Shown piece by piece: positions 12,135 to 32,650 of a stretch of DNA of 32,879 nucleotides. Location of the stretch: the NCBI GenBank assembly GCA_900316115.1, contig ONBN01000024.1:1-32879 (forward strand), read 5' to 3'. Source of the DNA: an uncultured Eubacteriales bacterium. Its GTDB lineage: Bacteria > Bacillota > Clostridia > Lachnospirales > Lachnospiraceae. Under the pieces are notes generated by a model, which was given only the letters and a program-made list of their open reading frames with translations, did no database searches and was not told where the DNA came from. The number at the start of each line of letters is the position of its first letter. The first letter of the stretch is position 1. The position numbers and the translations under genes were made by a program.

Positions 12135-12205
<71 letters not shown>

Positions 12206-30161: not shown

Positions 30162-30299
30162 AATTGTCGGGTAAAGCTTTTATAACTGAAACAATTGGAA
30201 ACTCTCAAATAATCAGAAGTAAAGCATTCTGGTGATATGTCAAGAGAAATTTAAAATAGTTTTTGATATGTTTTTCTAAAAAAGGGCGCACTTCACCAT

Positions 30300-30331
30300 C
30301 GCTCATCAATCATCTTTTTGAAAAATGAGCG
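30300..30331. repeat. Inverted repeat at the transposase 3' end
   Basis: CGCTCAT (30300-30306) and ATGAGCG (30325-30331) are perfect complements, the latter abutting the transposase stop codon. It may be a weak terminator for the transposase or a structural part of the IS right end. Confidence 0.5.
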
Positions 30332-31633
30332 TTATTCAAACTCAGTATTTAATTCGGCGTCCAGTTTTTCGCCGGTGTACAGTTGGTTTTTGACCAGCAA
30401 ACCAAAAACGAGTCGTACGAATTTACGAGATGTAAGTGCGAGTGCTCTCTTGTGCTGATGTTTAGTTACTTCAGCATATTTTCTGGAATAAAATTCAGCA
30501 TATTCAGGAACATGTCTCCTGACACTGTTGGCAGCTTCTCCAAGGTAATAACGCAGATAAGTATTTCCAGCTTTTGAAACACGGTTATCTTCGGAAACAA
30601 AGTCACCGGAATCATTTTTCAGCCATGTTAAACCTGCATATTTAGCAAGTGCATCCGATGAGTGAAATGCTGTTATATCGCCTATTTCTGATAAGATTCC
30701 AGCAGCCCATACAGGTCCAATTCCTGGGATAGACTTAAGGATGATAAAGGCATTTGGGTTCATTCCGTTGATGCATTTTTCAATCGCCTGATCGATCAGT
30801 TTGATTTCTTTCTGATAGGTCTGAATACAGTTAAATGAACTTGCCAAAGACACATTTAAAGGTTCATACATGCATTTATCTAACCGATAGGAATCTCTGG
30901 CAGCTTTTTTCAGAAGTTCAGAAGTCCTGGATATATCTGCAATACGATTCCGGCTTTTGGAAGCCAGAAACTGGAGCAGTTCTTCTTCCGGGGAATCAAT
31001 GATCTCTTGAAGGGACATAAACTCTGTAAGAACTGCGGATGATGTTGCACCGTAAATGTTACTGAACGGCTGGCTGTCATTATCCAGGAGCTGGAGTTCG
31101 CTGAATTTTAGGTAGAGATTGGATACCATGTAGGTTTTCTCTCTGGTAATACATTCAGCAAGATGTAGGCGGTGCCTTGTAAGTCTTTTTAAGGCAAGAT
31201 ACTGGCAGCCCCGCCATGGTTCACATTTTTTAGTGCGTCCGACCCTTGCAAAATCCGAAATAAGGAAAGCGTCCATGTGATCTGTCTTATCCATGCCAAC
31301 ATAGGTTTTCCGGTAGTTGGCAGTCATCTTTGGATTTAAGCAGTACACATAGGGCCTGTAAGGCATCAGGAGTTCACAGGAAGCCAAAAAATTGGCTATG
31401 TGGATACTGTAAACAGATGTGGATTCCAGAGCCACAATAATGGTATTGATATGCGGATGCTTTTGCATGCAGTCAGCAATCTTTCCGGCAAGTTCATCAG
31501 CACCAGGCTGGTTGTTGCCGAAGGAAACATCAATATATTTGTTTTCATCAAAATCCATGGCATAAACCACATTGGATTTTGAGCTTACATCAATACCAAC
31601 GAACAAAGTGGACATATAGTTGATCTTGATCAT
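30332..31633 (-). CDS. IS110-family transposase (bridge-RNA-guided recombinase type)
   Basis: The intact 433-aa protein has an N-terminal RuvC-like DEDD domain: Asp15 in FVGIDVSSKS, Glu70 in VALESTSVYS and the aspartates of KTDHMDAFLISD (Asp118, Asp121). The C-terminal Transposase_20 domain has a helix-hairpin-helix-like SIPGIGPVWAAGIL (301-314) and the conserved serine in NRVSKAGNTYLRYYL (Ser353). Related IS621 forms a complex with a bridge RNA pairing donor and target DNA. The start at 31633 has AAAGGAG upstream. No stop or frameshift is seen, so the element is likely active. Confidence 0.95.
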   Translation of the reverse strand: MIKINYMSTLFVGIDVSSKSNVVYAMDFDENKYIDVSFGNNQPGADELAGKIADCMQKHPHINTIIVALESTSVYSIHIANFLASCELLMPYRPYVYCLNPKMTANYRKTYVGMDKTDHMDAFLISDFARVGRTKKCEPWRGCQYLALKRLTRHRLHLAECITREKTYMVSNLYLKFSELQLLDNDSQPFSNIYGATSSAVLTEFMSLQEIIDSPEEELLQFLASKSRNRIADISRTSELLKKAARDSYRLDKCMYEPLNVSLASSFNCIQTYQKEIKLIDQAIEKCINGMNPNAFIILKSIPGIGPVWAAGILSEIGDITAFHSSDALAKYAGLTWLKNDSGDFVSEDNRVSKAGNTYLRYYLGEAANSVRRHVPEYAEFYSRKYAEVTKHQHKRALALTSRKFVRLVFGLLVKNQLYTGEKLDAELNTEFE

Positions 31634-31689
31634 GATATCACGCTCCTTTCCGATCTGGATTTGTGAAGCCTAAAGCAGAAGGTTTATCC

Positions 31690-31890
31690 GGGATATCATA
31701 TGATGACCGCAGCCTCGCGTAATGAGCATTCATCCAGTCAGCATTTTTCGCTGGTGCTAATGGCTGGAGATGCAACTTCTGTGTAAGCGGAATATGTCAT
31801 ATGAGCCAGGCTGCATGCTTTTTGAGCAGTCTCGGACAAAGCCGGCTGAAAGGAATGAAAGCAGTGCCTTCGGACATCAGACTCTGCAGA
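31690..31890 (-). ncRNA. Candidate bridge RNA of the IS110 element
   Basis: Upstream of the transposase the minus strand folds into two domains. The 5' domain is closed by GCAG-AG-TCT (plus 31879-31887) with AGACTGC (31826-31832), around a large loop. The 3' domain is closed by CAGCCT (31808-31813) with AGGCTG (31710-31715). It encloses a hairpin: GCAT/ATGC (31770-31773, 31726-31729), TCCAG/CTGGA (31764-31768, 31733-31737) and AGCA/TGCT. This order (target loop, then donor loop) is that of IS110-group bridge RNAs. It is an inference by hand folding; guides were not assigned. A weak -10 (TAAGAT, minus) lies near plus 31892-31897. Confidence 0.4.
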
Positions 31891-31999
31891 TATCTTACCA
31901 CAGGATAAACAGTATGAAAATATAACTATTAATTGTATAGATGGGAATAGGATGAGGGGAATGCCTCTTAGATGTCCTTACCTCTAAACCATAAAAAGA
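31891..31999. other. Non-coding stretch between the IS left end and the acetyltransferase leader
   Basis: This stretch is AT-rich with no open frame. It holds a possible weak minus-strand promoter for the bridge RNA and a small GAGG/CCTC hairpin (about 31953-31967). The true left boundary of the IS probably lies in or near it. I see no clear promoter for the plus-strand acetyltransferase. Confidence 0.4.
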
Positions 32000-32039
32000 A
32001 ATAAGTCTGTAAGTGATTTCTCTTGCTTACAAACTTATT
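32000..32039 (+). promoter_or_regulatory. Leader hairpin before the O-acetyltransferase gene
   Basis: AATAAGT-c-TGTAAG (32000-32013) pairs with CTTACA-a-ACTTATT (32026-32039), a 13-bp stem with one mismatch and a 12-nt loop, ending 17 nt before the start codon and just before ACGAGG. It could hinder or protect the ribosome site or be an operator. Confidence 0.5.
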
Positions 32040-32056
32040 ATACGAGGAATATAGAT

Positions 32057-32650
32057 ATGAATCCACTTGAAATTATGAAACGCCGGGCAGCCTATGCCAG
32101 TGGCTATGAAAATACGCCGGTTGAGGCGCAGAAGCGTGCAAAACAGCTTTGTTGGGAATATAACCGTACTGCACCAAGTGAGCAGGACAAACGCCATTCT
32201 ATTTTGATGGAACTTCTGGGAACCTGTTCACCTATGACAGGTATAGAACCGGATTTCCACTGTGACTATGGATTTAATATTCACACCAATGGTCTGGTTG
32301 TTATAAATTATAATTGTGTTATTTTGGACACATCTCCGGTAAATATTGGTGCTGGTGCATTTATTGCTCCTGGTGTGTGCCTTGCCTGCTCAGGACATGC
32401 CATTGATCCAGTACAGCGCAGCCAGGGAATTGGTACGTCTGCTCCCATCACACTTGAGGAAAATGTATGGATTGGAGCAAATGCTACGGTTTGCGGTGGT
32501 GTGACGATTGGTGCTGGTTCGGTTATCGGTGCCGGGAGTGTAGTAACGCATGATATTCCATCAGGGGTTATTGCTGCAGGGGTTCCCTGCAAAGTCATCC
32601 GCCCCATCACAGAAAGAGATAAGCTGGCACCAGAGGAAATTTTATTCTAA
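32057..32650 (+). CDS. Maltose/galactoside-type O-acetyltransferase
   Basis: This is a trimeric left-handed beta-helix acetyltransferase that acetylates sugar hydroxyls with acetyl-CoA. The 197-aa protein has the N-terminal Mac domain (MKRRAAYASGYENTPVEAQK), imperfect hexapeptide repeats (IGAGAFIAPG; then IGANATVCGGVTIGAGSVIG), the catalytic histidine in CSGHAIDP (His114) and the usual end GVPCKVIRPIT. Compared with Maa/LacA the length and motifs are normal. The loop SGHAIDPVQRSQG matches maltose acetyltransferase-like members, so the symbol maa is possible but specificity is uncertain. ACGAGGAA lies before the ATG. Confidence 0.92.
   Translation: MNPLEIMKRRAAYASGYENTPVEAQKRAKQLCWEYNRTAPSEQDKRHSILMELLGTCSPMTGIEPDFHCDYGFNIHTNGLVVINYNCVILDTSPVNIGAGAFIAPGVCLACSGHAIDPVQRSQGIGTSAPITLEENVWIGANATVCGGVTIGAGSVIGAGSVVTHDIPSGVIAAGVPCKVIRPITERDKLAPEEILF

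Follow-up and report, generated by a model that had tools for sequence, protein, structure and literature searches.

The window, that is the whole stretch of 32,879 nucleotides that was analysed, contains a complete IS110-group element of 1824 bp (30223..32046, minus strand, both CT cores counted), which was delimited by the ends common to its relatives and by their differing flanks. Its transposase is an open frame of 433 amino acids (30332..31633, minus strand) that scores over the cut-offs of the Pfam families DEDD_Tnp_IS110 and Transposase_20 and over that of the NCBIfam IS110 equivalog transpos_IS110. Among solved sequences it has three matches at E <= 0.001, the best being the transposases of IS621 and ISCro4. 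A first-pass annotation of the locus, made from the letters and their reading frames, had described this transposase as intact, with its DEDD residues and serine kept, and comparison with relatives confirmed the description. In the relatives' aligned segments D15 was present in 83 of 83, E70 in 83 of 85, D118 and D121 each in 87 of 87 and S342 in 86 of 86, these counts being made after the removal of 16 rows (15 loci repeating the same copy and the window itself). The protein has the DEDD RuvC-like domain and the C-terminal domain with conserved serine of the IS110 group.

Relatives of the element were collected from a scan of genome contigs, of which the best 80 of 115 were kept, from 397 genomes of the family (38 matched the left-end region, the window's own included and some weakly), from 98 close genomes (14 matched the element, again including its own and some weak matches) and from viral contigs, which yielded three loci. 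The 15 repeated loci were also removed before the ends and guides were counted, and the 84 left-end matches include weak ones (L094 on the minus strand, L131 and L134). Two loci, L028 and L029, carry elements 95% identical to that of the window, and the same genome as the window contains four other IS110-type matches (L001, L002, L004 and L005, the last weak). In most of the long matches the alignment ended at, or a few bases from, two positions shared by the copies, and in more distant relatives it covered the gene only. The left end begins CTCGTATAATAAG and the right end finishes ...TTGACATATCACCAGAATGCT; the ends themselves are conserved while the DNA outside them varies from copy to copy. 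There are 413 nt between the left core and the start codon and 109 nt between the stop codon and the right core, so that, as is characteristic of the IS110 group, the left end is the longer and the RNA described below lies upstream of the transposase. In one relative, L055, the start of the left end (CTCGTATAATA) occurs twice in tandem at a distance of 19 nt (L055:2637-2656).

The cores are the dinucleotide CT, as in IS621, at 32045..32046 (left) and 30223..30224 (right), both on the minus strand. They were located by comparison of the ends and by one relative, L113, in which the interrupted site has tandem paralogues that lack an insertion and have a single CT, which fixes the position of the join. 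No target duplication beyond the short core was seen, an observation that comes from L113 and not from the window copy. No unoccupied counterpart of the window's own insertion site was found among 64 genomes of the genus, nine of which match the DNA of the neighbouring gene (one is the window's own genome and eight match in short, distant stretches), nor was an empty site found for L116 in the single other genome of that genus examined. 

The predicted bridge RNA, as spanned by a covariance model, occupies 31670..31895 on the minus strand, the outermost predicted pair joining 31880 with 31670; this is much the same stretch as the 31690..31890 at which a candidate RNA had first been placed. The two loop-bearing domains originally proposed on the basis of folding require more care. 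Folding of the single sequence provides no evidence for them because shuffled sequences fold equally well, 62 of 200 doing so for the RNA (z -0.35) and 18 of 100 for a longer stretch (z -0.75). The domains are instead supported by covariation. A consensus structure predicted from an alignment of 33 RNA stretches has 40 pairs, 24 of them with changes on both sides, and 96.2% of cells are paired compared with 29.2-43.4% when the partners are slid by one to three columns, a control against which the structure is favoured since it was derived from this same alignment. The covariation score was reached by none of 500 shuffles and the number of further pair types by six of 500. All seven pairs of the stem closing the donor loop (31803-31797 with 31703-31697) have changed on both sides, as have both pairs of a hairpin inside the target domain and six of nine in the two outer stems. 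Two loops closed by covarying stems are therefore present, the stem of the donor domain being the stronger.

The covariance search recommended in the first-pass annotation was carried out with a model, R1, against 45 sources, comprising the window (a training row) and 44 loci outside the training set, some of which are close kin of training rows. R1 matched 36 of the 44 at E <= 1e-4, although L042, L070 and L099 were matched only partly, and the matches included Bacilli relatives with transposases 44-50% identical. The same RNA is thus found beside related transposases. Eight loci gave no match at that threshold (L001, L002, L004, L005, L091, L105, L106 and L107), L106 and L107 reaching E 0.0098; the first four of these are the other IS110-type matches of the window's genome, in which, incomplete as it is, the R1 RNA occurs once. 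A search of Rfam at gathering scores found a tRNA at 12135-12205 as its sole match.

Within the first loop two short boxes vary where their surroundings do not, with mean pairwise identities of 0.63 and 0.56 against 0.85 elsewhere (first 27 of the 33 alignment rows). The 5' box resembles the left flank followed by CT and the 3' box resembles the reverse complement of CT and the right flank, the same arrangement as in the published bridge RNA. In the window these boxes are the left target guide UUUCAUUCCU (31851..31860, minus strand) and the right target guide UCAAAAAG (31818..31825, minus strand), the latter being the reverse complement of the core and right flank. Each box covaries with the corresponding flank of its own copy. 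Guides were extracted with patterns fixed on their surroundings, and L001, a chance match to the pattern, was removed before pairs were shuffled. On the left, 57 guide-target pairs from 60 guide records matched at 286 letters compared with 232.0 after shuffling (sd 6.2, z 8.7); on the right, 45 pairs matched at 123 letters compared with 81.8 (sd 6.1, z 6.8). Neither total was reached in 20,000 shuffled pairings. These shuffles take no account of relatedness. When each distinct guide was represented by a single pair, the observed agreement was reached in none of 20,000 shuffles on the left (30 guides) and in two of 20,000 on the right (25 guides).

The agreement is strongest at left positions -2 to -4 and at right positions +1 and +2, and weaker at -5, +3 and +4; in the right-hand set with one pair per guide only +1 stands out alone. 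Position -1 of the left guide is always C and so carries no information. At left position -4 the letters match in 47 of 56 pairs, the nine mismatches being in L035, L063, L069, L072, L074, L102, L117, L121 and L138. The window itself has a rare AUUC guide at an ATTC target, and L028 and L029 have UUCUC guides at TTCTC targets. The window's left guide agrees with the target at four bases in a row, the first of them constant in the family, and its right guide matches only two bases beyond the core. Copies that share a guide are informative here. Guide TTTTTCACC occurs in three elements, each at a site ending TCAC, and guide TTATTCTCC at two sites in one genome, both ending ATTCTC; an exception is TGTTTCTCC, found at sites ending CACTC and TCCTC. 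The presence of copies with one guide at several sites sharing the guide-matching letters argues that the guide chooses the site. The first loop of this predicted bridge RNA matches both sides of the target, and the 30 distinct left guides, taken with the sites at which they are found, form a natural series that should help to establish which guide positions matter in bridge recombinases. In one relative (L036:2394-2589) the junction between a partial and a complete left end falls exactly within the target guide, the DNA of which is itself a left target; insertion of the element into its own guide, with one of the copies subsequently lost, would leave such a fusion, as would an assembly collapse.

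The same first loop could be read in another way, as part of a mainly cis-acting leader that controls translation of the transposase, with UCCUUUC (31854-31848) pairing with the transposase Shine-Dalgarno sequence GAAAGGAG (31650-31643). In the window 7 nt of the two can pair, and inspection by eye suggests the same for many relatives. That the variable guide letters track the insertion site of each copy is not, however, expected under leader control, and the transposase Shine-Dalgarno differs among copies without matching changes in the guide (by eye, uncounted). We regard this explanation as very improbable, and guidance by a bridge RNA as the better account of the first loop.

The sites that the guides match have a common character. 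The core is preceded by CTC in 61 of 84 left flanks, and CAT stands 8-13 nt outside it in 68 of the 84. An outward reading frame of at least 60 codons starting 4-16 nt away was found at 62 of 79 left ends but at only two of 58 right ends; the same criterion applied at random flank positions was satisfied at 870 of 7412. ATG is the start codon in 57 of the 62 frames, and 31 of them begin at exactly 10 nt. Read on the opposite strand, CTC-CT-T is AAGGAG. The element therefore targets the Shine-Dalgarno sequences of genes and enters them in a single orientation; the start codon is usually 10-11 nt away, and a qualifying gene was absent at 17 of the 79 left ends.

It might be argued from the near constancy of CTC ahead of the core that a preference for Shine-Dalgarno-like sites resides in DNA binding by the transposase itself and that the likeness of the RNA loop reflects shared ancestry or chance. 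Rare guide letters (TTC, CAC, CCC) nevertheless accompany the same rare letters in the target, and one guide is found at several unrelated sites, so that a protein-only preference seems slightly less probable again than leader control. Rewriting of the guide from each new target after insertion, which would suit the greater variability of the boxes than of the remaining RNA in the 27 rows compared, is scarcely credible given two pairs of copies, L061 with L062 and L056 with L057, each within a single genome, in which an identical guide occurs at different sites and these sites have mainly the guide-matching letters beside the core in common.

At the window's own insertion the retained AGGA of the target Shine-Dalgarno, a spacer and the ATG (32057) of an acetyltransferase-like gene, recognised from its reading frame and Pfam, lie at 32045..32059 on the plus strand. 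Before insertion the site would have read TAAAGGAATATAGATATG ahead of this gene; after it the left end supplies CGAG, giving CGAGGAATATAGATATG, and the ribosome-binding site may still be functional. The targets have the form CAT, spacer, TCTCCTT known from IS900. Guides end CTCC in 51 of 60 records and CCTCC in 27 of 60, followed by TT. The 16S rRNA ends in CCUCCUUUC. The pattern GGATCACCTCCTTTC was found in two of five genomes searched and was absent from the other three, these being the window's own, which is incomplete, and two other hosts of the element; none of the 84 left flanks ends GGATCACCTC, as insertion into the rRNA tail would leave it. On balance we favour the view that, in this mostly Firmicute IS110 lineage, a guide with the letters of the 16S anti-Shine-Dalgarno sequence addresses translation starts in any genome, that the ends preserve the ribosome-binding site while the outer guide letters drift freely, and that the same principle would explain targets of the IS900 type.

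Guides for the element's own ends were sought in the second loop. The left donor guide, ACACAGAAGUU (31774..31784, minus strand), resembles the right end ACCAGAATG and tracks the right-end variants of relatives: the segment ACACAGA(A/T) on the 5' side of the loop agrees with the right end in all 46 guide records that have one. Three kinds of pair occur, CAGAA with CAGAATG (31), CAGAT with CAGATTG (14) and CAGGA with CAGGAAG (one), within a search pattern that admitted only CAG(A/G)(A/T), so that other core letters could not have appeared, and the three kinds largely follow relatedness. In the more distant Bacilli elements L078, L082 and L099, as judged by eye, CAGATG in the RNA is accompanied by CAGATGTCT at the right end. 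The putative right donor guide, AUUACGCGAG (31714..31723, minus strand), is complementary to the left end CTCGTATAAT at eight of 10 positions; the left end hardly varies among copies, and this assignment is made from the sequence alone. A segment beside it, GAAUGCUC, was also considered as the left donor guide and was dropped because it is unchanged with the right end, whereas ACACAGA(A/T) changes. An 8-nt match initially noted between the donor loop and the right end, TGACATAT at 31799-31792 and 30242-30235, is present in the window, and we attribute it to chance: 32 of the 33 aligned RNAs lack it, it overlaps the closing stem 31803-31797, and the donor guide that covaries lies elsewhere, at 31784-31774. 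With target and donor guides identified that covary with the target and with the right end, the original proposal of a bridge RNA gains support, and we estimate at about 0.92 the probability that a bridge RNA belonging to an intact IS110-group element is encoded here.

Several conserved features suggest how the RNA may be expressed. Just upstream of it is an extended -10 promoter-like sequence, TGG-TAAGAT (31892..31900, minus strand), identified from column conservation among 37 left ends: in TGN-TA(T/A)(G/A)AT the T, G, T, A and T are identical in 37 of 37 and the first A in 36 of 37. The right end contains TTGACA (30238..30243, minus strand) and the left end TATAAT (32037..32042, minus strand), which in a predicted circle would lie 17 nt apart as the -35 and -10 of a consensus promoter, about 150 nt from the structured RNA. 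Overlapping this -10 is a terminator-like hairpin of 13 bp followed by a T-rich run (32001..32038, minus strand), in which 99.0% of cells are paired among 30 sequences and five of 13 pairs have changed on both sides. Scans with consensus promoters and terminators, which listed four promoter-like sites (5.4 expected) and three terminator-like sites (1.4 expected), included neither the internal -10 nor the hairpin, and these two are accordingly put forward from conservation and covariation. No outward promoter was listed in the left end on the plus strand between 31637 and 32150. The RNA probably has its own promoter in the internal extended -10. Our reading of the hairpin is that it may stop transcripts entering from outside, and a transcript begun at the junction -10 would be missing the first letters of the hairpin and would pass. 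A second inverted repeat, GGTTTAGAGG...CCATCTATAC, lies at 31935-31990 between the terminal hairpin and the bridge RNA and is seen in relatives too; four loci (L038, L040, L049 and L053) have some 80 nt extra just past it. UCCUUUC (31848-31854) and the complementary transposase Shine-Dalgarno GAAAGGA (31643-31650) lie on the same possible transcript, an arrangement that might influence translation or expose the leader to self-targeting.

Taken together these features are consistent with the following sequence of events. Excision would produce a circle in which the -35 of the right end and the -10 of the left end are joined into a consensus promoter, and the internal extended -10 would probably also transcribe the bridge RNA, which would then bind the transposase. 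The first loop would pair with a target reading ...CTC-CT-T..., which is a Shine-Dalgarno sequence seen on the opposite strand, and the second with the joined ends of the element, the right donor pairing being the more conjectural. Strand exchange at the CT core would place the element just upstream of the ribosome-binding site of a gene, with the transposase facing away, and would leave the AGGA part of that site beside the gene. The element may still be active.

Comparison with known systems shows what is shared and what is not. IS621, as described in the sections consulted of Durrant 2024 (PMC11208160), likewise has a DEDD-serine transposase with the RNA in a longer left end upstream of it, and a two-loop RNA in which the guide for the bottom strand lies 5' and that for the top strand lies 3'. 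According to the same sections a promoter is formed at the circle junction of IS621, whereas for the window's element this is only predicted. The targets differ, those of IS621 being REP elements and those of the window's element Shine-Dalgarno sequences. The IS621 RNA, in that account, starts at the junction promoter, whereas the structured RNA of the window begins about 150 nt further in, behind the conserved extended -10, and a covarying terminator-like hairpin separates the two, unlike in IS621. The seekRNA of ISEc21 and IS1111 elements, in the portions consulted of PMC11187229, is a non-coding RNA that binds the transposase, as is predicted here, and, like the window's RNA, it matches both strands of the target and shows natural reprogramming between relatives; its targets are different, and it is processed to 70-100 nt, a form not known for the window's element. 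Guidance by an RNA, the arrangement in two loops and natural reprogramming have already been published (PMC11208160, PMC11187229).

A search for literature joining IS110 bridge RNA with Shine-Dalgarno targets found none in a coverage that mostly leaves out subscription papers and preprints, and the parts consulted of PMC7823733 and PMC3196728 have no bearing on the link. The closest parallel is IS900 of Mycobacterium avium subsp. paratuberculosis, for which the consulted part of PMC8141618 prints the target motif CATGNNNNNNTCTCCTT. This has the layout of the window's targets, CAT, a spacer and CTC-CT-T; it is given there as a motif without a guide RNA, the likeness noted here being one of motif. 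The guides described here would offer an RNA-based explanation for insertion at ribosome-binding sites, a target that for IS900 was printed as a bare motif. The part that specialists may not expect is an anti-Shine-Dalgarno guide kept over a deep lineage.
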